From: a virus
Direction: 5' to 3' (one strand)
IMG/VR virus record: IMGVR_UViG_3300020034_000016
Coordinates: 1-57,508 of that record
DNA length: 57,508 bases
The notes below the pieces were generated by a model, which ran no database searches, was not told the DNA's origin, and worked only from the letters and a program-made list of their open reading frames with translations. Position 1 is the first letter of the stretch. Every line of letters starts with the position of its first letter. Shown in pieces: positions 1,144-32,753 of the stretch. The position numbers and the translations under genes were made by a program.

Positions 1144-4100
1144 AGAAAATCATTTCCATCATTCCTCTTTTATTCCTTATCCACCTGGTGCAGGGGCAGG
1201 ATGTTCGCGCAACACGGGTCAAATCGGACAGTGCACTTACGGGTCCGGTTGATACGCTTAAGTCCGCGCGTAACGGTTCTATAGCTTCGAAGAACGGCAT
1301 CAACTATTTCAAAGACGGCGATCCTGCGTTATCCAACGGTCACTGGATCCGCCAGATTTCCAGTAAAGACACGACCTCGATATTAGCTACTAAAACCGAT
1401 ATCGCCGGGCTTAGTGGAGGTGGCGGTATATCCGATGGAGATAAAGGTGATGTCACGGTATCAGCGGCGGGATCCAGCTGGCTGATCAATAACAATGCGA
1501 TCAGCAATGCAAAACTGAGGCAGTCCGCTGCTTTATCCATTATGGGGCGATCAGCCAACTCAACCGGCAATATTGCGGATATTTCTGCTTCTAGTGATGG
1601 TCAGCTTCTCCGGAGGTCGGGAACAACTTTAGGCTTTGGTTCGTTGGATATGGCGAATACAAGTGCGGTGACCGGTCTTTTGCCGGATGGAAATATATCG
1701 TCGGCTTCAGCCTGGAATGCCAAAATCTCAAATATCACTGGACTTGTTTCTCAAGGCACCAACGTGACCATATCGGGCCTGGGAACTTCCGTCAGCCCCT
1801 TTGTGATAAATGCAACAGGCGGCGCTGGCGGAGGACTGTCAGGGGGTAACGCAGGTTCGAAGTTTAGATTGTATTTGCCTGCCTCCAGTGCGGTAAGGAG
1901 CCTTGGATTCTCCAACCAGTTTTTAGCTGATACCAGCACAACTGGAGAATTGAATCAGAAATTGGATACCAGTATCATCCGGACCGTTTTGAATAGCTAT
2001 GACAAATCTCAAATCAATACGATCGCTAACTCCAAGACCAATCTATCGGATACGGCGAACATGCTGGCCAATTACACCCGCCGTGCCGAATTACTAGATA
2101 CCGCCAACGCGCTGCGAATCACTATTGGCAATGGCGGAGGTAGCGGGCCATCATTTGTGAAATCTCTTATCAATAGCGCCGGCACAGTTGCGCTGATCAA
2201 CGATGTCACAACTCCGAAAAAAGGATACTATTACGGCGCGTCGCAGCGCAAGGACAGCGCTCGCGGTTATCACGAACTCGAAGAAACATTTTTAGGAACG
2301 CTTTATAATGCGAATACCTGGTCAACGACTGGAGATTTCATACAAACAGGCGTGACGGCTTCGGTTGTAAGTAATAAGATCCAGGTAACGCCAATAGCGA
2401 ATAATACGTTTACCGCGACACTTGATATCGATAATATCCTCGGCAATGTTCCTTTCCAAAATCTTCAGCGATGGAAGTTCACGGCGAAAGTGAAGATCGA
2501 TGCAGTTTCATCCACCTCATTCGGTTGGGGAATCGGTACGCATTCGTACAATGATTTCGGAATGAATAATGGGATGGGGCGATTTGGCGGCCAGACCGGC
2601 AATGGCTCTATTATTCAGAACGGTGGTGGCCTTACGGAACAATTGGACAGTACGATAAGAAAGTTATCCTGGTCGTCCGGAGATTACCTGATCATGACAG
2701 TAGAGAGGAACGGACACCACATTTCTACAAAGATTTATAATTCTACTACCAATACGGTCGGCATCGATACATCGTATGATTATTCCTGGTCAATCGCGCC
2801 ATCAACGCCCAACACGGGGAAATTCGCTTTCTTTCTTCGCGGCGGACAGATCACCATCGATAGTATTTCGATCACCAGCACGGAGCCTAAGAATGCTATG
2901 GTAATGTTCGGCGGAGACAGTCGGACAGATGGGTATTCAAGCACAAGTGAACAAGCTTCGTGGACTTTCATCTTGAATAAATATTATACCTCCGCCATAA
3001 AGATGGCCGGAGGGTTCGACCGCACAAAAGAGTTGGCGAAGACTGTAGCCCTCGCCATCGCCATGCGTCCGAAGCAATATGTTATTTGTGGAATTGGCAT
3101 TAATGACCTGGCGCAGGGAGCAGAAATTCTTTCCGTGATCACGAACCGGTATGATAGCATAGCGACCGCTCTTGAGGCGGCAGGGATCGAAGTATTTCAT
3201 GCCCCAATGTACGCCTCGACCGTTAATTATAAACCTATTTATGACCACATCGTCGCCACCTATTCGGCCGACAGGATATTGCCAACTTATCCAACTTTCA
3301 TCAAAGCAGGCAATCTAACCTCGGGGGGTCTTCATCAAAACGATTCGGGTAGTGTAGATTATGCGGACGCGATATTAAATTCCTTCAAACTGTATCCCGG
3401 CAGTAATAGATATAACAATATTCCCGCTGCGGCAGATCTGGATATCCCTCCGTATTTGGCGATTGGTAATGTGATAAAAAATAGTCTGACAACCGCTGTG
3501 CCGGGGAATGTCTTGTTCGCGGGATTGGGTGGTAAGCTATCGCAGCATACGAACAATTTCATTTATGACAGCACTAATAACAGGCTCGGCGTAGGGGTTG
3601 CTCCATTATACAAGATACACGCCTTTGCGGCGTCTGGAGCGGTTGATATTACTGCCCAATCCACGAGCGCGAGTAATGTCAATATCCATACGCAAAACAG
3701 CCTGGAGAACTGGATTTTCGGTGTGAAAGCATCAGGTGTATGGGCGTTGACAGACATTGGCGGAGCGGAACGGGTCACAGTTGATGGATCAACCGGATCA
3801 TTCGGTATCGGTAATACGGCACCCGTGGCACGGTTGAGTGTCGGTACAGCCGCCAGTATTCTCGGGACTATCTCGGTAGCAGGTAATTCCTCGGGTACGA
3901 TAACCATGACACCGCAAGCTGCAGCGGGTACGTATAATTGGAACTGGCCGATAACAGCTGGCGGCATAGGGCAACGGTTAACGTCACAAGGGGGTGGATC
4001 TACGGCGATGACCTGGACGAGCGCGGTTGATTCTATATACAAGAATGCGGGCGGCGACAGCACGGTATTCACGATCGACGGACGGAGACACGCGGTTATC

Positions 4101-22290: not shown

Positions 22291-24303
22291 ATGAAAATTA
22301 TTCTGAAACACTTAACCCTGCGAAATTTCAAGGGTATCCGTTCACTCGATGTTCCCTTCGACCAGGTAACAAACATCCATGGACGCAATGGAACAGGCAA
22401 GACTTCCGTCTTCGATGGCTTCCTGTGGATGCTGTTTGGTAAGGACAGTACCGATCGCAGCACGTTTGAGATAAAAACACTTGATGAGAACAATGAGCCC
22501 TATCACAAACTCGAGCATGAGGTGATCGCTGACCTGATCATCGATGGCCAGGATATCACGATCCGTAAAGTCTACAGAGAAAAATGGGTCAAGAAGGCTG
22601 GTGCTCCCGAAGCCGTATTCTCCGGGCATGACAACTCCTACTATTGGAATGATGTTCCACTAAATGAAAAAGAATACACCGCCAAAATTGCCACGTTTAT
22701 CAACGAAGGCCAGTTCAAGCTGCTTACAAACCTCGGGTACTTCAATACAGTTCTGAAGTGGCAGGATCGCCGCGCTTCCCTGTTACAACTCGCCGGTGGG
22801 ATCAATGATCTCGAGGTCGCGCATCAATTGAATAAGGATGGCAGTTATGACCACCTGATCAATGCGCTACAGGCCAAGAAGACCGTCAAGGAATATTCCA
22901 GCGAGATATTGTCAAAGAAAAAGAAGATCAAGGATGAGTCTGAAAACCTTCCACACCGGATCTCCGAGGCTCGCTATGGGCTTCCGGAGGAAATTGATTA
23001 CTTGACCATCGAAAACAAGATCGCTGCCAACCAGGCGGACCTGGCAATCGTAGAGGATCTGTTGATGAATAAAAGCGTTGCGCAGAAAGCCAGGGAGCAG
23101 CATATTACCAACCTGTATAAAGAACAAGGTGACGCGCAGCGTGATCTCATGATGTTGGAAAATCATGCGAAGAATACCATCCGCGAAAAAAAGCAGGTCC
23201 GCGAGAACAATCTCATTGCGCTGCGCGGTGAGCTCCGCGGGATCCAGGATAATAAATCCAGGCTGCTTATCAGCTATACAACAGAGTCGAAGCGCCGGAT
23301 CGAGTATATCGCTGCAAAGGATATGATCGGCCGAAATTGGGACGCCGTCAATGCTGAGACTTTCCTGATGGATCCCAATTCCTGCATCTGCCCTACTTGC
23401 AGACAGGACCTACCCGGGATCGATGCAGCTGCAAGAGAAGGAGAGCTTCGACGCAACTTCAACCAGGATAAAAGCAAGCGTCTGGCAGAGATCGCCGACA
23501 AGGGGTTGTCATTAAGAAATGATATTGCGCATATGGATACCGTCCTTGCGAATATCAAAGCGGATGGCGAAGCGGCTGCAGGTGCGATCACAGGCCTTGA
23601 AAATAGAATTGCAGATTTTGAAACAGAGCATACCCGGCTGTCTAACGATGAAGCTGCGGAGATCACTACGGAACTGAAAAGCACGGTCTCTTATCAGGCG
23701 ACTACTAATAAGATCGCTCTTCTTACCGAACAGATAAATGCACCGGCGCCGGAAGACAACAACATTGATGCGATCGCGCGCCGCCGTAGTCTCGTAGATG
23801 ACGTCTCTTCTCTCAATCGCCAGCTGGCCACCAAAGGTCAAAGGGAGAAGGCACTCCAGCGCATAGCGGACCTGGAGAAGCAGGAAAGTGAATCGGCACA
23901 GGCCCTCGCAGATCTGGAGCGCATGGAGTTTACGCTACTGGAATTTGACCGCGCCAAGATGGACCTCCTGGAGGAGCGCATCAACGGTAAGTTCCGTCTC
24001 GTAAAATTCAAACTCTTCGACCGCCAGGTCAACGGCGGGGAAACACCTCAATGCGTGACGCTGATCAACGGTGTTCCCTATCCTGATGCCAACACAGCCA
24101 GTCGGATCAATGCCTCCCTCGATATCATCAATGTCTTTTCGGAGTTCTATGGGGTCATCGCACCGGTGTTCATCGATAACCGGGAAAGCGTGACCGATAT
24201 CCTGCCAACCGAATCGCAGGTGATCAACCTGATCGTTGCGCCGGCAGATACCAAGTTAAGAATAGGATCACCGACGTCCCAGGTCGCCGAATTCGCAAAC
24301 TAA
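22291..24303 (+). CDS. SbcC/Rad50-like SMC-family ATPase
   Basis: 670 residues. Walker A GRNGTGKTS (Gly31-Lys37), a long coiled coil (about 190-600) interrupted by a zinc-hook CPTC motif (Cys367, Cys370), and a Walker-B-like VFIDNRES near Asp629. Architecture is that of SbcC/Rad50 proteins. Length is about half that of a full SbcC, as in phage homologues. Directly upstream of recT, so it probably processes or holds DNA ends for recombination. The usual partner nuclease SbcD is absent; the MBL-fold protein downstream may take its place. Confidence 0.88.
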   Translation: MKIILKHLTLRNFKGIRSLDVPFDQVTNIHGRNGTGKTSVFDGFLWMLFGKDSTDRSTFEIKTLDENNEPYHKLEHEVIADLIIDGQDITIRKVYREKWVKKAGAPEAVFSGHDNSYYWNDVPLNEKEYTAKIATFINEGQFKLLTNLGYFNTVLKWQDRRASLLQLAGGINDLEVAHQLNKDGSYDHLINALQAKKTVKEYSSEILSKKKKIKDESENLPHRISEARYGLPEEIDYLTIENKIAANQADLAIVEDLLMNKSVAQKAREQHITNLYKEQGDAQRDLMMLENHAKNTIREKKQVRENNLIALRGELRGIQDNKSRLLISYTTESKRRIEYIAAKDMIGRNWDAVNAETFLMDPNSCICPTCRQDLPGIDAAAREGELRRNFNQDKSKRLAEIADKGLSLRNDIAHMDTVLANIKADGEAAAGAITGLENRIADFETEHTRLSNDEAAEITTELKSTVSYQATTNKIALLTEQINAPAPEDNNIDAIARRRSLVDDVSSLNRQLATKGQREKALQRIADLEKQESESAQALADLERMEFTLLEFDRAKMDLLEERINGKFRLVKFKLFDRQVNGGETPQCVTLINGVPYPDANTASRINASLDIINVFSEFYGVIAPVFIDNRESVTDILPTESQVINLIVAPADTKLRIGSPTSQVAEFAN

Positions 24304-24329
24304 TTATTCACTATTTAACTCAGATAAAA

Positions 24330-25178
24330 ATGACACTACAAAACAATGGCCAGGCGCCGGCCGCAACCCTTCCCGTGAAATCGCCAACCAAATCGGAACT
24401 CATGATGTCCTTCTTTGAAAAGGACACCGTCAAAAAGCAAATGCAGAATGCACTGCAGGAAAACGCTCCATCCTTTATCGCTTCGGTCATCGATCTCTAC
24501 ACGGGTGACGATACATTGGCGGCTTGTCATCCGGAGTTGGTTGCCATGCAAGCATTGAAGGCCGCAGTTCTGAAACTCCCAATCATAAAAGCCTTGGGTT
24601 TCGCGTACATCGTACCATATAGGAAGGGTGATAGTATGATCCCGCAATTCCAGATTGGCTACAAAGGCCTCATCCAGTTGGCCATTCGGACCAACCAATA
24701 CCGGATCATCAATGCCGATGTGGTCTACGAGGGTGAATACCGGTCTTCCAATAAATTAACGGGCGAGTTCGATCTTACCGGCACCAAGAAGAGCGATACA
24801 ATCGTTGGCTACTTCGCCTATTTCGAAACCAAGGAAGGATTCTCCAAGACTCTCTTCATGAGTAAGGAGCGCGTCACGGCTCATGCGCAGAAGTACAGCA
24901 AGTCCTATAGCCAGTCCTTCTCCCCCTGGAAGACGGAATTCGATGCCATGTCCATTAAAACGGTCCTGCGCGGCCTCATCAGTCACTGGGGTATCATGTC
25001 CACGGAGATGCAATCGGCTATTACTGACGACGACAGAGATGTTGCAGAACGGACCATCGACGAGATCAATCGCAACGGCAATACCAAGGACATGAAGATG
25101 GATACGTCCCATATCGAAGACGCAGAGTTCAGCGGCGGAAATAATGAATCAGATTCACTAAATGGCCGCCCCTTCTAA
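24330..25178 (+). CDS. recT: RecT single-strand annealing protein
   Basis: 282 residues. RecT family core: LPIIKALGFAYIVPYRKGDSMIPQFQIGYKGLIQLAIRT, then VVYEGEY, FAYFETKEGFSKTLFMSKERV and the C-terminal WKTEFDAMSIKTVLRGLISHWG. RecT anneals complementary single strands for phage recombination. It lacks a RecE partner here. Its C-terminus ends NGRPF, one of several Pro-Phe tips in this region. Confidence 0.95.
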   Translation: MTLQNNGQAPAATLPVKSPTKSELMMSFFEKDTVKKQMQNALQENAPSFIASVIDLYTGDDTLAACHPELVAMQALKAAVLKLPIIKALGFAYIVPYRKGDSMIPQFQIGYKGLIQLAIRTNQYRIINADVVYEGEYRSSNKLTGEFDLTGTKKSDTIVGYFAYFETKEGFSKTLFMSKERVTAHAQKYSKSYSQSFSPWKTEFDAMSIKTVLRGLISHWGIMSTEMQSAITDDDRDVAERTIDEINRNGNTKDMKMDTSHIEDAEFSGGNNESDSLNGRPF

Positions 25179-25388
25179 ATGAAGGTTTCCAAGAATATAA
25201 AGCGCGGGGCAGAAATCACTGTTGCGGATCTCCCGGAACTGGTCTGGCTCGCTAAGGAGAGGCAGTCAGTTGTTGTGCTTTTCGGAAAGAACTACTACTG
25301 TGTCCGGCCGGCCGCGTTTATCCTTCAGTGGAAGCTTTCAGAAATATTAAAACATAAAATCTATAACGCTTTAAAAATCGATAGTTGA
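25179..25388 (+). CDS. small protein between recT and MBL genes
   Basis: 69 residues, basic, no known motif; starts MKVSKNIKRGAEITVADLPELVWLAK. It directly follows recT and overlaps the next gene at TTGA. Similar proteins accompany recT in Bacteroidota phages as I recall. Function unknown. Confidence 0.7.
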   Translation: MKVSKNIKRGAEITVADLPELVWLAKERQSVVVLFGKNYYCVRPAAFILQWKLSEILKHKIYNALKIDS

Positions 25389-26125
25389 ACCTACACGTAA
25401 TCAATAGCAACTCTGCCGGTAATGCTTACATCCTGGAGAACGATCAGGAGGCATTACTGATCGAGTGCGGGGTAAGGTTCGAAAGGATCAAGCAAGCGCT
25501 GAAGTTCAATTTCAGAAAGGTTGTGGGGTGCCTGGTGACGCATGAGCACGGCGATCATTCAAAGGCGATAGTAGACGTTCAGAAGGCAGGCATTAAGGTG
25601 TTCGCCTCGCTGGGCACCCACACAGCGCTTCATACAATCACTCATCATAGATCTGTCGTTGTGAAATCTGGACAGGAATTCAAGGCCGGAAGCTTCCGGG
25701 TGAAACCGTTTGATGTGAAGCATGATGTGGCAGAGCCTTTGGGCTTCCTGATAAGCCATCCCGAGACCGGCCTTGTCCTGTTCCTTACTGACAGCTACTT
25801 CAGCGAGTACACATTTCCAGGACTCAACAATGTGATAGTAGAAGCGAACTACTGCCAGCGGATCCTGGACGATCGGGTTCGGGCTGGTGAGAACCCTAAG
25901 TTCCTGCGTGATCGCGTGATCACGTCGCACATGAGCCTGGAGACGTGCAAAGGGCTGCTGAAAGCGAATGATCTAACCCAAGTCAATAACATCGTGCTGA
26001 TTCACCTTTCCGATAACAATAGCCACTCGACTCGCTTCAAGCAGGAAGTGGAGGAAACAACTGGCAAGATGGTCCACGTGGCCACTCCAGGATTGACCAT
26101 TCCCTTTAACCGCAAACCCTTCTGA
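25385..26125 (+). CDS. MBL-fold nuclease-like protein (YycJ-like), recombination partner
   Basis: 246 residues starting at TTG 25385 overlapping the previous stop; there is no nearer ATG and the MBL fold begins directly there (NLHVINSNSAGNAYIL). Metal motif THEHGDH (His53, His55, Asp57, His58), later FDVKHD and a LTDSY segment. MBL-fold proteins of this YycJ-like type often lie beside recT and are believed to act as 5' exonucleases. It would feed single strands to RecT. It ends NRKPF and overlaps the next start by ATGA-type coupling. Confidence 0.85.
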   Translation: MNLHVINSNSAGNAYILENDQEALLIECGVRFERIKQALKFNFRKVVGCLVTHEHGDHSKAIVDVQKAGIKVFASLGTHTALHTITHHRSVVVKSGQEFKAGSFRVKPFDVKHDVAEPLGFLISHPETGLVLFLTDSYFSEYTFPGLNNVIVEANYCQRILDDRVRAGENPKFLRDRVITSHMSLETCKGLLKANDLTQVNNIVLIHLSDNNSHSTRFKQEVEETTGKMVHVATPGLTIPFNRKPF

Positions 26126-26355
26126 TGTCTGAACTACAAAAATTAACCACGCGAATCATTGAGATCGCCAATGCTGATAGTTCCCCTGCTATAAAACAGG
26201 GGACAATCAGCAATCGAATTGCATACTTCGTTGATGACATTCTAAAACTTGCTCGAAATATTAACGAGACGAGCATATCTGACCGGGATCATTTGGAAAG
26301 GGTCACCGAGCTGGAGACAAAATTTGGTATCAGTAAAACACACATAATCCGATGA
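26125..26355 (+). CDS. hypothetical small protein
   Basis: 76 residues, helical, no known motif. It contains a large inverted repeat (26172-26212) in its coding sequence. Coupled to the MBL gene by overlap. Confidence 0.65.
   Translation: MSELQKLTTRIIEIANADSSPAIKQGTISNRIAYFVDDILKLARNINETSISDRDHLERVTELETKFGISKTHIIR
26172..26212. repeat. large inverted repeat inside a coding region
   Basis: Two nested stems: TGCTGAT (26172-26178) with ATCAGCA (26206-26212), and TCCCCTG (26182-26188) with CAGGGGA (26197-26203), loop CTATAAAA. Together about 14 bp with a small internal bulge. Confidence 0.75.
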
Positions 26356-26358
26356 ATA

Positions 26359-26652
26359 ATGGCTAGAGCTGACTATGTATATACCATCACCAGCCGCGGC
26401 GGTCGCAAGGTTCTTGTGATCGAAGACCAGGACCTGGGGCGCATGAGTGTGACGAATTGTATTGAGGATGTCGTGGCGGAGATCTGCACAAGGGAGAAGA
26501 TCGTGGCCCGTGAATATGTGATCGTCTACATGGACAGTGAATACAAGTGGGGTGGATGGGATGATGGGCGGCAAGAGTTCGTTGTGTTACGATCCGGAAA
26601 CTGGAGATCGGCGGTGGATCTGTATGTGGCCGAGATGGTGAAAAAAATTTGA
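26359..26652 (+). CDS. hypothetical small protein
   Basis: 97 residues with a beta-like core (YVYTITSRGGRKVLVIED; YVIVYMDSEYKWGGWDDG). No known motif. Last gene of the recombination operon; a terminator follows. Confidence 0.68.
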   Translation: MARADYVYTITSRGGRKVLVIEDQDLGRMSVTNCIEDVVAEICTREKIVAREYVIVYMDSEYKWGGWDDGRQEFVVLRSGNWRSAVDLYVAEMVKKI

Positions 26653-26691
26653 CTTAACGCGCTTCTCACAAGGAAGTTTATAATAGTGAAT

Positions 26692-26726
26692 AACCGGGAG
26701 TTGTGTCTACTCCTCCCGGTTTCTTT
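26692..26726 (+). terminator. rho-independent terminator after recombination operon
   Basis: AACCGGGAG (26692-26700) pairs with CTCCCGGTT (26713-26721), followed by TCTTT. It separates the recombination operon from the replication/DGR operon. Confidence 0.8.
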
Positions 26727-26814
26727 AAAATCCAACCTGATAAAAACCCACCCACCGTACCAACATTGAAAATGAAGAGCAAACATTCATTTAGTAAATA
26801 CATAGGCATCCAAC

Positions 26815-27450
26815 ATGGCAAAATCAAAAGTGAAAGACCTGACGCCAGAACAGGAATTTGAGACTGAATTACAAAAGGATGAGCGGAAGGTCATCATCAC
26901 ATCTGCGACTATCAAGGACCTGCATTGCAATTACGATTATGTTCCCATGGTAGGACCTCAGCGTCTGACACCACTTGGCGCCAAGGGTCCCGGTATCATT
27001 GATGACGACTTATCTGAAGCCATGGCCAGGCTCAAGGCTCACCTGGCTTACATCGATGGTGCTTTTGCCGGAAAACGTGTTAGTGATATCGACAAATTTC
27101 ATGAGCATGAGATCACCGAAAATTACCACGTCGACAGTATCAAAATGAAAGGATCGGATGGCGATCGACGAATCTCCATCATCGGCAGCAAACATTTGGA
27201 AGCCGGCGGAAGGATGAAGTGTGAAACTCCTCCCTATCTGATAGAAGACCACTCTGGATATAAGTTCTACAATGAACTAAAATCGGAGGTCGATTTCATC
27301 TTCCATGAAGTGGAATTGTATATGGAAGGAAAATACACCATGCCAGTTACCGACGACGATGAGCCGGAAGATCCAAAGCAAACCAAGATTCAATTTGAGC
27401 AGCCATTGGATGACTCTCATACTAACGATTCCGAGAACTCGCCGTTCTGA
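26815..27450 (+). CDS. hypothetical protein with SSB-like acidic C-terminus
   Basis: 211 residues. The N-terminal part has no known motif; the last 40 residues are acidic and end NDSENSPF, resembling the acidic Pro-Phe tip by which bacterial SSB recruits repair proteins. First gene of the replication operon, coupled to the helicase by TGATG. A phage SSB analogue is plausible; the fold should be checked. Confidence 0.7.
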   Translation: MAKSKVKDLTPEQEFETELQKDERKVIITSATIKDLHCNYDYVPMVGPQRLTPLGAKGPGIIDDDLSEAMARLKAHLAYIDGAFAGKRVSDIDKFHEHEITENYHVDSIKMKGSDGDRRISIIGSKHLEAGGRMKCETPPYLIEDHSGYKFYNELKSEVDFIFHEVELYMEGKYTMPVTDDDEPEDPKQTKIQFEQPLDDSHTNDSENSPF

Positions 27451-28628
27451 TGCCATTTGAACCACGATATTACCAAGCTGATGCCGTTGCTGCCAATCTG
27501 GAGTTTTTCGGAAGCAAGAAGATCTACAACGGTATTGACATCTGCCCTACCGGGTCCCGGAAGAGCTTGATTATAGCACTCACGGCCAAGGAGCTTTCGG
27601 GAAATACCATCGTCTTTCAACCATCGAAGGAGATCCTGGCGCAGAACTTTGAGAAGATTCTTTCTTATGGATATCGCGCATCCATCTATTCGGCCTCCGG
27701 TGGCATGAAGCATGTCGACAAGCTGACGTTTGCTACGATCGGTTCGGTTTACAAAAAGCCCCAGTTGTTTGGCAAGTTTAAAAACATCATCATCGATGAG
27801 TGCCACCTGGTCAATCCTGAAGAAGGCATGTATAGCAAGTTCCTGAAGGATCTTGGTAGCGCGAAGGTCCTGGGCTTAACAGCCACGCCGTACCGTCTTT
27901 CTCCTGCCTCCGGCGGTGCTATGCTGAAGTTCATTACCCGAACGACACCCCGGGTCTTTAATCAGGTCCTGTACAAAATTCAGAACGATACGCTCTTCAA
28001 TGAGGGCCACCTGGCGCCACTTCAGTATTTCGATATGCAAATGATCGATCGCGCAAAACTGGAGATGAACAAAGCCGGCACTGATTTCACCGAGGAAAGC
28101 ATCCGGGCGCAATACAAGGCGGTAGGAATGATCCAGCAGATGATCAACGTAGGCAACCGGATCCTAGCGAAGCGAAAGAATCTTCTAATCTTCTGTTCGC
28201 TCATCACTGAAGCGAATACCATAGCGGCTGGGATCGCGGGAGCGGTCGTGGTCACCGGTAAGACACCGCCGGAAGAGCGTCAGCGAATTCTTTCCAATTA
28301 CAAGAAGGGGCTCATCCGTTGCGTGATCAATGTAGGTGTACTGACGACTGGCTTCGATTACCCTGGTCTGGAGGCCGTGTTGATTGGAATATCCACCATG
28401 TCTCTTTCGCTGTTCTATCAGATCGCAGGCAGAGTCATGCGCCCTTTCACCTATCCTGATGGAACGAAGAAGACTGGATGGGTAGTGGACATGGGTGGCA
28501 ATCTCAATGTATTCGGAAAGATAGAGACCATGCAGATCGAGAGGGATAACAAAGGCCACTACTTTATTTCAAATGTCGTCAACGGCGCATGGCGCCCATT
28601 AACTAACGTAATCTTTTCAAAAAACTAA
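27450..28628 (+). CDS. SF2 DEAD/DEAH-type DNA helicase
   Basis: 392 residues. Motif I PTGSRKS (33-39), motif II DECH (116-119), motif III TATP, motif V GVLTTGFDYP and motif VI QIAGRVMRP with arginine fingers at about 328 and 331. Overall similar to phage UvsW/SSL2-type helicases. The usual Gly before Lys in motif I is Arg (codon CGG), which is unusual. It is followed directly by the DGR target gene, so the DGR is inserted in the replication operon. Confidence 0.88.
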   Translation: MPFEPRYYQADAVAANLEFFGSKKIYNGIDICPTGSRKSLIIALTAKELSGNTIVFQPSKEILAQNFEKILSYGYRASIYSASGGMKHVDKLTFATIGSVYKKPQLFGKFKNIIIDECHLVNPEEGMYSKFLKDLGSAKVLGLTATPYRLSPASGGAMLKFITRTTPRVFNQVLYKIQNDTLFNEGHLAPLQYFDMQMIDRAKLEMNKAGTDFTEESIRAQYKAVGMIQQMINVGNRILAKRKNLLIFCSLITEANTIAAGIAGAVVVTGKTPPEERQRILSNYKKGLIRCVINVGVLTTGFDYPGLEAVLIGISTMSLSLFYQIAGRVMRPFTYPDGTKKTGWVVDMGGNLNVFGKIETMQIERDNKGHYFISNVVNGAWRPLTNVIFSKN

Positions 28629-28630
28629 AT

Positions 28631-29128
28631 ATGGAACCAGTACCAGTACAACTATCAAAAAACGACATCATCGCTATCTACCAGGAATCAACCCCTGCAG
28701 GCAAGGAAAAGCTGGAGGAAAAATTCGGCCGAAAAACCTTCAATCGAAATATCAACATAGCGGATCGAATATGGACTGTCGACGATGCCTGCGTGGAAAC
28801 CGGCCGTCCGATAGAAGAGGTCAGGCCCTTTGCTAATCCCTCTAACGCCTTCCAGGATTGGCTGAATGCCTGCGGTGAGATGGCAGTGTTGATAGAGGCA
28901 TTCAACGAAGGAAAGGTTCCTGACTGGGCTGACCCCAAACAGAAAAAATATATAGCCTGGTGGGATATGCGCCCTGAATCCGGCTTCGGGCTGTCGTTTC
29001 GCGATGTCGACTTCGTTAACTCGCGTACGTGCGTCGCGTCCCGCCTTCATCTTTTAAAAGAAGATCATCACAAACTCATCGCTGAACGTTTCCCGGATAT
29101 CTGCAAACGCTATATGACCAAGCGCTAA
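28631..29128 (+). CDS. DGR target protein 1 (variable protein)
   Basis: 165 residues in an alpha/beta domain that I recall from Bacteroidota DGR targets: DACVETGRPIEEVRPFANP, then AVLIEAFNEGKVPDW and YIAWWDMRPESGFGLSF. The variable repeat covers residues about 117-139 and ends VASRL; about 25 more residues follow, so the VR is internal. It differs from classical C-type lectin DGR targets. It starts 2 bp after the helicase stop. Function unknown; it is not attached to a tail protein in this window. Confidence 0.85.
   Translation: MEPVPVQLSKNDIIAIYQESTPAGKEKLEEKFGRKTFNRNINIADRIWTVDDACVETGRPIEEVRPFANPSNAFQDWLNACGEMAVLIEAFNEGKVPDWADPKQKKYIAWWDMRPESGFGLSFRDVDFVNSRTCVASRLHLLKEDHHKLIAERFPDICKRYMTKR
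28979..29046 (+). repeat. DGR variable repeat VR1
   Basis: 68 bp aligned without gaps to the template repeat at 29603-29670. Twelve positions differ, eleven of which are A in the template; the other is C to T. The last 11 invariant bases (GTCGCGTCCCG) are the likely initiation site for mutagenic homing. A perfect 12-bp palindrome lies 3 bp after it. Confidence 0.9.
29050..29061. repeat. palindrome just downstream of VR1
   Basis: TCTTTTAAAAGA is self-complementary over 12 bp. A hairpin or cruciform just after VR is required for efficient DGR homing in the best-studied system, and VR2 is followed by one too. Confidence 0.6.
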
Positions 29129-29160
29129 ACAATCATTTCATCATTATCAAAATACACACA

Positions 29161-29565
29161 ATGTTTAATTACAAAACTATCACCAGCTATGAGGCGGCCT
29201 GTGCCGACCAGGAACGCGATCCTTTGGCTGAACCTGATTACTCCAAGTGTGGACTGGCACCTGCGCAGGAGCAGTATCACCGGTCGTCCTTCCGGTGGGA
29301 TATTATCCGCACTTCAGTGAATAAGGACAAAGAAGGCAATTTGTGGAAGCCCACACCAACAGAGCGCAGGTACTATTTCTGGGCCTGGATAAACCCTGAT
29401 GCTAACAAGCGTTCCGGCTTCGGGCTGTCGTTCGTCGATGTCAACTTCGATGACTCGATTTCGGGCGTCGCGTCCCGCCTTCAATTTCGGGACGAGCCCC
29501 GAACCAAGTTCATGTTCGACACATTCCCGGATCTCTGTGAGGATATTTATATCCCGCAGGAATGA
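29161..29565 (+). CDS. DGR target protein 2 (variable protein)
   Basis: 134 residues. Shares the target-1 layout: a short start domain (TITSYEAACADQERDP), an acidic middle, then RRYYFWAWINPDANKRSGFGLSF, variable residues up to VASRL and a helical tail. The variable repeat is residues about 85-107. Its own stop is close to the template repeat. Probably a second independent target of the same RT. Function unknown. Confidence 0.85.
   Translation: MFNYKTITSYEAACADQERDPLAEPDYSKCGLAPAQEQYHRSSFRWDIIRTSVNKDKEGNLWKPTPTERRYYFWAWINPDANKRSGFGLSFVDVNFDDSISGVASRLQFRDEPRTKFMFDTFPDLCEDIYIPQE
29413..29480 (+). repeat. DGR variable repeat VR2
   Basis: 68 bp aligned without gaps to the template repeat. Ten positions differ and all ten are A in the template. 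Codon for codon the reading frame is the same as in VR1. Confidence 0.92.
29486..29503. repeat. hairpin just downstream of VR2
   Basis: TTCGGG (29486-29491) pairs with CCCGAA (29498-29503) around ACGAGC, five bases after VR2. Together with the VR1 palindrome it suggests a conserved homing structure. Confidence 0.6.
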
Positions 29566-29602
29566 CCGATAACAGGCTGTGCACTGTCAAAAGCGTGACT
29601 CT

Positions 29603-29670
29603 TCCGGCTTCAGGCTGTCGTTCAACGATGTCAACTACGATAACTCGAATACGAACGTCGCGTCCCGACT
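29603..29670 (+). repeat. DGR template repeat (TR)
   Basis: 68 bp between the second target gene and the RT start, on the same strand. It contains 16 adenines; 11 of them are altered in VR1 and 10 in VR2. A TR upstream of the RT is the usual DGR order, and 104 bp separate it from the RT ATG. The TR frame is open and would encode RLSF-N-DVNYDNSNTNVA, that is Asn/Asp/Tyr codons rich in A, the form expected for AAY-type mutable codons. Confidence 0.93.
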
Positions 29671-29774
29671 ATGCGAATCTCACGATAGTGCAGGCCTTGC
29701 CCACATGGCAAAAAATGATTCATCTAATTGGGGCTGTGGTACCGAAAGGGAAGCAGACCCATGAAAGCAAAGGC

Positions 29775-31001
29775 ATGAAACGAAAAGGTAATTTATTCGC
29801 TCAAGTTTGCACCCTGGAGAACCTCCAGCAAGCGGACGCCATTGCGCGGATCGGGAAGAAGCACCGATCCGATATACGGGCCTTTGACAGGAACCGAGAT
29901 GAAAACCTGCTGGAGCTGCGCGACATGCTTTTGTACAACGAATATTCTACGTCTCCCTATACTCTGAAAACAATCAGGGACCCTAAAGAGCGGATTATAT
30001 GCAAGCTCCCCTACTACCCGGACGGAATCGTTCATCATGCGATCATGATTCCGCTGGAGCAGATCCTGGTGTCTTCCTTTACCACGAACTCGTATGCTTC
30101 CATCAAGGGGAAAGGTGTTAAGGCCTTTTGCGATGACCTGGAGAGAGCCCTGCGCGATCAAGCCGGAACGCAGTACTGTCTGAAGATCGATGTAAAGAAG
30201 TTTTATCAGAACATCGACCACACGATCCTGAAATTCAAGCTGCGTCGAAAAATCAAGGACCCGGATCTTTTGGGGCTGATAGACGAGATCATTGACAGTG
30301 CTCCCGGCTTACCGATCGGTAACCATCTCAGCGGCTTCTTTGCGAATCTATACCTGAATGGCCTTGATCATTTTCTAAAAGAAGTCGTCGGCGTCCAATA
30401 CTACTTCCGGTATATGGATGATATCATTATCCCGGCTGCCACCAAGCCGCAGCTCCATCAGCTGCGCGTCATCATCCAAGAATACCTGGCCACCCATCTA
30501 AAACTGGAACTGAAATCGAACTACCAGGTATTCCCAGTGTCCAATGGAATTGACGTTGTGGGCTACGTTTTCTACCATACCCACCGGCGCCTTCGCAAGC
30601 GAACCAAGAAGCGTTTTGCCCGCAGTGTTGCCCGCAACCCCAATTCCAGATCCATTCCCTCCTATTACGGTTTGGCAAAGCACGCGAACTGCAACCATCT
30701 CTTAAAAAAACTGCTATATGACAACAACAAGTTTCAAGGATTTAAACATAAAGGCAAAGACAAAAGGCTTTGTCGGACCAAAGATCGAAATGGAAGATAT
30801 AATGGGCAAGGAGATCGAAGTGCTGGATTTCAAGATCGGGCCATCCAAATTCCCGGAGAAATACGAGATATGCCTCAGCCTCCAGATAAAATTCGAAGAC
30901 TTACTGAGAGTTGCCTTCTCTTCCTCGAAGGTATTGGCAGAGATGATTCAGCAGGTTCCGAAAGAAAAATTTCCAGTCAAAACAACAATCGTGAGGCGTA
31001 A
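29775..31001 (+). CDS. DGR reverse transcriptase
   Basis: Start at ATG 29775 because DGR RTs begin MKRKGNLFAQ-like; an open stretch upstream overlaps the TR. Motifs: CLKIDVKKFYQNIDH with Asp139, RT motif GLPIGNHLSGFFAN (181-190), and FRYMDD (Asp215, Asp216), then HLKLELK and VVGYVFYHTHRRLRK. DGR RTs normally have Ser-Gln where this protein has Ser-Gly (186-187). At 30704-30710 seven A residues offer a -1 slip: the shifted frame ends KKTAI-stop at 30719-30721, giving 315 residues, whereas the unshifted frame runs on to 31001 (408 residues) over the next gene. Reads template RNA and writes mutagenised cDNA. Confidence 0.9.
   Translation: MKRKGNLFAQVCTLENLQQADAIARIGKKHRSDIRAFDRNRDENLLELRDMLLYNEYSTSPYTLKTIRDPKERIICKLPYYPDGIVHHAIMIPLEQILVSSFTTNSYASIKGKGVKAFCDDLERALRDQAGTQYCLKIDVKKFYQNIDHTILKFKLRRKIKDPDLLGLIDEIIDSAPGLPIGNHLSGFFANLYLNGLDHFLKEVVGVQYYFRYMDDIIIPAATKPQLHQLRVIIQEYLATHLKLELKSNYQVFPVSNGIDVVGYVFYHTHRRLRKRTKKRFARSVARNPNSRSIPSYYGLAKHANCNHLLKKLLYDNNKFQGFKHKGKDKRLCRTKDRNGRYNGQGDRSAGFQDRAIQIPGEIRDMPQPPDKIRRLTESCLLFLEGIGRDDSAGSERKISSQNNNREA
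30704..30721 (+). other. A7 slippery tract at RT 3' end with ATGA coupling in the -1 frame
   Basis: TTAAAAAAACTGC: in the RT frame the codons are TTA AAA AAA CTG. A -1 slip gives ACT GCT ATA TGA, whose TGA (30719-30721) overlaps the ATG (30718) of the next gene. The A run is also a common place for a sequencing error. Confidence 0.5.
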
Positions 31002-31029
31002 GGAAACTAAGCGCCATGAATTCACTTAA
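30718..31029 (+). CDS. DGR accessory protein
   Basis: 103 residues: FSDL-like start TTTSFKDLNI, then KGFVGPKIEMEDIMGKEIEVLDFKI, FPEKYEICLSLQIKFEDLLRVAFSSSKVLAEMIQQVPKEKFPVKTTIV and a basic end. I recall this family directly after Bacteroidota DGR RTs. It is not the four-helix Avd of Bordetella phage. It overlaps the long RT reading frame by 283 bp in another frame and is coupled to the -1 RT frame by ATGA. Probably assists cDNA synthesis or homing. Confidence 0.78.
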   Translation: MTTTSFKDLNIKAKTKGFVGPKIEMEDIMGKEIEVLDFKIGPSKFPEKYEICLSLQIKFEDLLRVAFSSSKVLAEMIQQVPKEKFPVKTTIVRRKETKRHEFT

Positions 31030-31321: not shown

Positions 31322-31690
31322 ATGACAGCGCCACAAAAAGCACTCATTATTAAACTGCTCTCGGGATGCTATCTCAAGAAGAGCACACTGAGCACTGGCG
31401 CTAAGAGCTATCGGTTATACGATGGGCGGGGTAATGTACTCTTACGTCTGCACGCTCGAACGGTGGACTCGATCGACCGGTTCATCGATCCGAAGATCAA
31501 GATCTGGAAGCACACCCCGGATGGGAGGATTACGCTGAACCTCTGGATGGTTCGTCGCCTGCATGGAAAATGCCTGATCAAGAGAATGTACAAGACAAGG
31601 GAAGCGCTGCAGGATCCCTTCAATATTTATAAACCAAGAAAGAAAACATCAAAACCTCAGTCGAATGAAAAAGTTCAGTATCTCTTCTGA
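31322..31690 (+). CDS. hypothetical small basic protein
   Basis: 122 residues, strongly basic at the end (KPRKKTSKPQSNEKVQ). The middle has DGRGNVLLRLHARTVDSIDRF. Its end overlaps the start of the sliding clamp gene by 26 bp. Function unknown. Confidence 0.65.
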   Translation: MTAPQKALIIKLLSGCYLKKSTLSTGAKSYRLYDGRGNVLLRLHARTVDSIDRFIDPKIKIWKHTPDGRITLNLWMVRRLHGKCLIKRMYKTREALQDPFNIYKPRKKTSKPQSNEKVQYLF

Positions 31691-32753
31691 CCAGGTAAAG
31701 AAGGCTTTTAAGAAGCTCTCCCTGGCTATAATTGCGAATCCCATTTTGCCTGCCTTGTCCAATGTATTGGTACGGGTGACCAAAGGACAGGTGGAGTTCA
31801 TCACATCTAATAATGATCTCACCATCAGCGAAAAGTGCGAGGCGAATGCGGCCGAGGAGTTTGATCTGCTTCTTCCCTTTGAGGACGTTTATAAGTATGT
31901 CGGCCTGTTGAAATCGGTCACCATGGTCATCGAGCACCCTTCGGCACGTAAAGCACGGTTCAGTGGGGATAATGACGTTTATGAATTTAACAGCCTGGTG
32001 AAGGTAGAGGACTTCGCCAAGATACCCTCCGTACCGAAAGGGAATGCCTTACACCTGGATGAATCCTTTGTAGGGTGGCTATCGAAGGCAATGGAAACGA
32101 CCAGCAAGAAGGAGGACGACAAGGCCCTCACGCGGGCCTGCCTCGATATCACGCCGAAGGGTATCTTCCTGGTCAGTACCGATTCGTATTTTCTCTTCAA
32201 AAGAAAGTTGGAAGGCGAGTCAAAGATTGCTGATCAGCTGCACTTCTCTCATCGACTGGCGGCTGCGCTGCAGGGATCAAAGGAACTCGAGGTGTCCTGG
32301 TCAAAGAATATGCTCTGCTTCCAAAGCGGCACAACGACCATATGGGCTAAGAGGTATGAAGATAAATATCCCAACTACAATTCGATCCTGCCGGATTATG
32401 AATCAAATCTGGTGCTCGATCGCGCAGCGTTTATGCATGCGCTCGATAAAATGTGTCTCTCCAGCCTGGCCACCAGACAAACCACGTTCAGCCTGAAGGA
32501 AACGGTGGGCAGTATTCAGTTGGTGACGGACGACCCGGACTACCAGCGCAAGCTCAAGGCTACGGTTCAGGGTGCCTATGAAGGACCTGTGGCTGTAATC
32601 TCTCTCAATGCAAAGCGGCTGCTCACGATCATGCACCAGGTAGACCATGATACTATCCGTCTTCACATTCACGATAAGACGAAGGCCGTCCTGGTATCCA
32701 CGGAGGAGGATCCTGCTTACATCGGTCTCATCATGCCACTTAAACTCGATTAA
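31665..32753 (+). CDS. dnaN: DNA polymerase III beta sliding clamp-like protein
   Basis: 362 residues with three repeats of the clamp fold. The N-terminal block SSDQVKKAFKKLSLAIIANPILPALSNVLVRV and LEFITSNNDLTIS-like lines match DnaN; a late MPLKLD end matches the clamp's C-terminal MPMRL-type tail. Phage-encoded clamps give processivity to the phage polymerase and serve as a platform for partners. It lies directly upstream of the PRTRC cassette. Confidence 0.88.
   Translation: MKKFSISSDQVKKAFKKLSLAIIANPILPALSNVLVRVTKGQVEFITSNNDLTISEKCEANAAEEFDLLLPFEDVYKYVGLLKSVTMVIEHPSARKARFSGDNDVYEFNSLVKVEDFAKIPSVPKGNALHLDESFVGWLSKAMETTSKKEDDKALTRACLDITPKGIFLVSTDSYFLFKRKLEGESKIADQLHFSHRLAAALQGSKELEVSWSKNMLCFQSGTTTIWAKRYEDKYPNYNSILPDYESNLVLDRAAFMHALDKMCLSSLATRQTTFSLKETVGSIQLVTDDPDYQRKLKATVQGAYEGPVAVISLNAKRLLTIMHQVDHDTIRLHIHDKTKAVLVSTEEDPAYIGLIMPLKLD

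Follow-up and report, generated by a model that had tools for sequence, protein, structure and literature searches.

What does a phage diversity-generating retroelement (DGR) write when its targets are encoded among recombination and replication genes? DGRs of phages are chiefly seen as devices that switch receptors by acting on tail proteins. The 57,508-nucleotide stretch of viral DNA analysed here (the window) carries a DGR cassette whose two targets, T1 and T2, are encoded in an early recombination/replication module and not in the tail module. The features that we refer to are as follows:

22291-28628, + strand: upstream early module with SbcC-like, RecT-like, metallo-beta-lactamase-fold and helicase proteins (profile matches)
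28631-29128, + strand: T1, small protein of 165 aa, phrog_11581 family, largely helical (profile match, predicted structure)
28979-29046, + strand: VR1, within T1 (repeat alignment)
29032-29048, + strand: putative IMH-like end of VR1, GTCGCGTCCCGCCTTCA (shared VR end)
29161-29565, + strand: T2, 134 aa, paralogue of T1 (profile match, paralogy)
29413-29480, + strand: VR2, within T2 (repeat alignment)
29466-29482, + strand: putative IMH-like end of VR2, GTCGCGTCCCGCCTTCA (shared VR end)
29603-29670, + strand: template repeat (TR), running into the IMH*-like GTCGCGTCCCGACTATG at 29656-29672 (repeat alignment)
29666-29774, + strand: conserved structured RNA spacer, RT-17-like (covariation; Rfam RF03020, 22.7 bits at 29693-29780)
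29775-31001, + strand: DGR reverse transcriptase (RT); the RT-like part extends to about 30716 and the open frame runs on into S (profile match)
30718-31029, + strand: S, basic OB-like protein of 103 aa at the place usual for Avd, candidate accessory factor (conserved gene, overlapping the RT frame)
31665-32753, + strand: downstream sliding-clamp-like protein with DNA polymerase III beta domains (profile match)

Two repeats differ from the template at adenines

The hallmarks of a DGR are a TR/VR pair that differs at TR adenines and an RT of the DGR kind beside the TR. The initial annotation had placed the TR and two VRs at the coordinates listed above, and these were borne out by a gap-free alignment over 68 nt. 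We also reproduced its counts: VR1 differs from the TR at 12 sites, 11 of them TR adenines, and VR2 at 10 sites, all of them adenines. The lone non-A difference of VR1 is a C-to-T change at TR position 29623, silent at a third codon position. Within the first 65 nt of the TR, which hold 15 A, differences on A make up 10 of 11 for VR1 and 9 of 9 for VR2 (hypergeometric P = 1.7e-7 and 1.6e-7, respectively). All 15 core adenines fall on the first or second codon position in the target frame, and mutation there would therefore mostly alter amino acids. At the 3' end, both VRs carry GTCGCGTCCCGCCTTCA (IMH-like) whereas the TR carries GTCGCGTCCCGACTATG (IMH*-like), apparently reproducing the IMH versus IMH* layout.

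Past homing in this phage is clear. VR1 and VR2 are unlike one another at several adenines, consistent with the earlier proposal that each copy was written separately; however, an A-to-G change at TR 29612 is common to both. This site is one of the adenines at the flanks whose changes seem to be fixed and not fresh products of homing. No further TR-like copy, and no third target, was found in the 57.5 kb window.

Related cassettes vary at template adenines

The cassette order T1-T2-TR-RT-S recurs in more than 100 loci fetched from phages and prophages of Bacteroidota. A target-based search yielded 68 loci in bacterial genomes, nearly all of them Bacteroidota, and 80 of 319 relatives in viral contigs were kept. 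Counted as loci rather than independent genomes, because some are different cuts of one contig, two targets lie upstream of the RT in 95 of 134 and three in 29 of 134 (124 of 134 together), S lies beside the RT in 121 of the 130 that have both target and RT, and 125 S genes adjoin an RT. The closest RT relatives (L002, L003, L005 and L007) have the same small targets, with A-only TR/VR differences.

The cassette also varies in layout. In L007 (5233-7279), targets flank the RT on both sides and a single TR matches both with A-only differences; no S was detected at that locus. Two Aquimarina loci (L149 and L153) carry four tandem target-family genes, and RT is absent from the 12 kb fetched. Targets with neither RT nor S nearby occur at 26 of the 68 genome loci.

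The initial annotation had proposed counting VR differences in relatives by template base. Using an unbiased match/mismatch score on 238 distinct TR/VR pairs from 110 loci, we found differences at 3104 of 5339 TR adenines, compared with 17 of 4931 C, 64 of 4073 G and 71 of 5603 T (152 of 14607 sites for C, G and T combined). Near-identical prophages gave the same answer over a much shorter divergence: L118 and L268/L119 (two different records) share an identical TR and show 0 differences over the 7,021 bp that lie outside their VRs, and their 11 differing sites all lie in VR1, all at TR adenines. Between Elizabethkingia L129 and L130, which diverge by 3.2% elsewhere, 23 of 23 VR differences fall on A. 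At the level of sequence, these natural variants document recent A-specific change of VRs in close relatives.

At the flanks of the family's TRs (for example, L118:5780-5860), the TR has A at positions where nearly all VRs share a single different base, silent sites included (TCA to TCG in 119 of 155, CTA to CTT in 122 of 123). Such flanking adenines possibly lie outside the homing tract.

The reverse transcriptase carries an altered motif

The window RT has phrog_1423 as its best family match (E = 6e-112). Its frame is open from 29562, upstream of the TR; the probable start at 29775 (MKRKGNLF) lies 3' of the TR, which is therefore probably non-coding. The earlier description of an RT directly downstream with its catalytic aspartates agrees with the YMDD motif that we found, but the range it covered also includes an open reading frame at 30718-31029 that is a separate gene, S. 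In an RT tree, small-target RTs cluster (4 changes versus 21 when shuffled) yet are mixed with crAss RTs, and given this interleaving we claim no clade.

DGR RTs carry the motifs GxxxSQ and YxDD. At about 30306-30335 the window RT reads GLPIGNHLSG, with SG in place of the SQ found in 194 of 195 related RTs; the window alone has SG, and the present activity of its DGR is for this reason unproven. We found no near-identical relative of the window phage, hence no close VR pair for this phage itself. The unique residue could mean that the DGR has decayed, the SQ-to-SG change having abolished or altered RT activity and left the VRs as fossils of earlier homing. We consider this unlikely: the RT is open with YMDD intact, both targets are open and unbroken, and the VR differences are still A-specific with a single exception.

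A covarying RNA between template and reverse transcriptase

The TR-RT spacer, roughly 100 nt long, bears the marks of a structured RNA. Nine of its 11 pairs are changed on both sides, and 93% of cells are paired versus 30-46% when the alignment is slid. Against the Rfam family RT-17, the 22.7 bits of the window copy fall below the gathering score of 40.4, which the spacers of relatives L005, L118, L115 and L102 exceed. A spacer model, R1, built from 29 sequences, matched another 70 loci of the family out of 75 examined. Weaker matches came from DGRs whose targets are of other kinds, among them crAss phage spacers at 39-47 bits; a search of BI-TP1, Versailles and BT-TP2 with this model found none. 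Because relatives' spacers match RT-17 and the model also matches DGRs with other targets, RT-17 would most simply be read as the 3' part of a DGR template RNA.

A small basic protein in the Avd position

Avd is common in DGRs but not universal. A search for Avd (PF05635) gave no match in 7 records, with the control search likewise silent. The initial annotation had called the DGR complete; repeats and RT are indeed present, but Avd was not found, S occupies its position and the RT departs from SQ. Members of the S family have about 98 aa and a median pI of 9.0, and a narrow scan for S recovered 10 close relatives only. The predicted structure (pLDDT 93) has five strands with a helix between the third and fourth. 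Matches in the PDB that contain an OB domain appeared only at E values of at least 0.18, so 'OB-like' is a lean rather than a result. The place of S and its co-occurrence with RT suggest an accessory factor, one that would bind nucleic acid and help homing.

A hairpin or cruciform 3' of the VR is a common accessory cis element of DGRs, although not strictly defining. A hairpin of the BPP-1 style after VR2 is plausible by eye, but over 219 sites a conserved hairpin after the VR did no better than a synonymous-codon control.

Targets are small proteins with early-gene neighbours

The phrog_11581 profile, whose function is unannotated, matches T1 at 9.3e-6 and T2 weakly, at 0.009. We found no Pfam family for T1 or T2, no NCBIfam for T1, no match for T1 in phages by tblastn and no target homologues on plasmids. 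AlphaFold2, run on 117 sequences, predicted a helical target (mean pLDDT 86) in which two short strands enclose the VR, itself modelled as a loop of low confidence. The predicted fold of T1 matched nothing in the PDB below E = 3 and, among viral predictions, uncharacterised phage proteins only, at good E values.

A VR set in a C-type lectin fold is usual for DGR targets, though not strictly defining. Target homologues in Bacteroides phage Versailles and in BI-TP1 have a longer, lectin-type VR; with these bridging sequences included, and only then, the target VR segment resembles lectin-type tail VRs (91% over 32 columns). Alignment A5 against A9, the lectin-like comparison set, gave 3.9%, but A9 itself matches neither Pfam nor the PDB, so sequence search cannot discriminate against a C-type lectin here. 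The best reading of alignments and models is a small helical scaffold of another kind that would hold a VR segment derived from a lectin.

Downstream of the cassette, the sliding clamp is followed by a primase/helicase and then by a methyltransferase and a terminase. Upstream, the metallo-beta-lactamase-fold protein (25385-26125) has a weak, sub-threshold match to the anti-Pycsar protein Apyc1 (E = 0.007).

Our best guess is that T1 and T2 act inside the cell early in infection, as they are encoded among recombination, replication, nuclease and methyltransferase genes, have no membrane segments and lie outside the tail module; across the family, a strongly hydrophobic stretch occurs in 3 of 212 targets only. 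They could instead belong to the virion or tail and, as Mtd of BPP-1 is, be diversified to bind receptors. In clades 1, 4 and 6, most viral DGR targets are tail proteins (PMC8144416), the Versailles homologue WAK79127 is labelled 'tail protein', 1 of 117 targets matches the tail protein family phrog_5302, and the bridged VR similarity described above points the same way. Yet the window cassette sits in an SbcC-RecT-helicase-clamp block, and WAK79127, despite its label, is an early-module gene (L277:5863-6444) in an SbcC-RecT-hydrolase-NinB block far from the Versailles tail genes. Over 27 loci, the neighbours of family cassettes are mostly nucleases, methyltransferases, replication or unknown genes. 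The targets themselves are about 120-170 aa, have no known tail domain and match phrog_11581 in 114 of 117 cases. We therefore regard a tail role as improbable, and retain early intracellular targets as the preferred reading.

A proposed mechanism and role

That the repeats are leftovers of gene duplication and the RT an unrelated defence or group II intron-like enzyme can be dismissed: some VR similarity is expected because T1 and T2 are paralogous, and generic RT models match the window RT too, but differences to the TR fall on A in the window, over the 238 pairs and in L118/L268, the best RT family is phrog_1423, relatives of this RT adjoin A-only TR/VR pairs, and models of defence RTs and introns fall well short of their cut-offs.

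The A-only differences, the DGR-type RT and the homologous cassettes with the same pattern all support the two-target DGR that the initial annotation had described. With considerable confidence, we interpret the locus as a member of a DGR subfamily common in Bacteroidota phages and prophages, with a structured template RNA, a probably assisting S and two targets that would act inside the cell early in infection. The sequence shows the repeats with their A-only differences, the family to which the RT belongs, the conservation of the cassette, the covariation in the RNA and the recent A-specific VR change in relatives; the steps that would connect these are as follows. A transcript would carry the TR together with the structured, RT-17-like 3' RNA, and the RT would copy this transcript, mutating at adenines. 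The OB-like S probably assists copying or homing. The mutated cDNA would then replace VR1 and VR2 in the two tandem paralogous small proteins.

T1 and T2 would most likely be variable proteins that bind host factors, those of defence for example, and counter-defence is the leading version of their intracellular role. We also put forward, as possible rather than probable, the broader proposal that dedicated DGRs of Bacteroidota phages hypermutate small early intracellular proteins, likely anti-defence binders, on a non-lectin scaffold and with an OB-like accessory replacing Avd. If true, these phages would have an adaptive repertoire against host defences that is separate from the switching of receptors. 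With a widespread dedicated cassette that writes tandem early proteins, the reach of targeted hypermutation would come to include a process within infected cells. Such a cassette would also give a likely role to the RT-17 RNA, to phrog_11581 (the targets) and to phrog_19665 (the candidate accessory). Many cultured hosts, among them Chryseobacterium, Flavobacterium, Pedobacter and Bacteroides, bring the idea within reach of a test.

Relation to known DGR systems

The BPP-1 DGR (Mtd, Avd, Brt) has in common with the window the TR/VR/RT logic, adenine mutagenesis and the IMH versus IMH* mismatch at the VR 3' end. There the target, a tail protein of the C-type lectin kind, has its VR at the C-terminus, followed by a GC-rich hairpin (PMC3240598), whereas in the window about 25 codons separate the end of the VR from the stop, with no conserved hairpin detected and Avd not found. 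DGRs of crAss-like phages have the closest annotated RTs, about 50% identical to that of the window, and spacers that match R1. In the two with an annotated upstream gene, this gene encodes a tail protein ('similar to sulfatase, major tropism determinant'), unlike in the window.

A non-structural DGR target is not new in itself: the Quimbyvirus-type DGR of Bacteroides phages has one, near methyltransferases and a tRNA ligase, which Benler et al. (2021) called a C-type lectin (PMC8008677); for T1 of the window, a whole lectin domain is not predicted. A genome-wide clustering of DGR targets by Roux et al. gave no name to many of them (PMC8144416), and the T1/T2 family may be among these. The additions here are a dedicated cassette with tandem targets, the extent of its spread, S and the link to the RNA. 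In the Quimbyvirus type, a TR located in the tail module is shared by a tail protein and a single early gene far away, whereas in the window the TR, RNA, RT and S form one cassette dedicated to tandem early targets.

Both are phage DGRs, and members of the target family are written from afar in two of the phages that we compared. In Versailles, the RT adjoins tail genes and the TR matches the early gene WAK79127, about 43 kb away (15 of 16 differences at A). In BI-TP1 (L280/L281), a single TR beside the RT matches both the tail protein gene gp12 (20 of 22 differences at A) and the early gene gp84, a T homologue (14 of 14 at A). BI-TP1 is Quimby-like: its RT is divided among three frames, and it also has methyltransferases and a tRNA ligase; given this matching gene context, gp84 is apparently the non-structural Quimbyvirus target of Benler et al.
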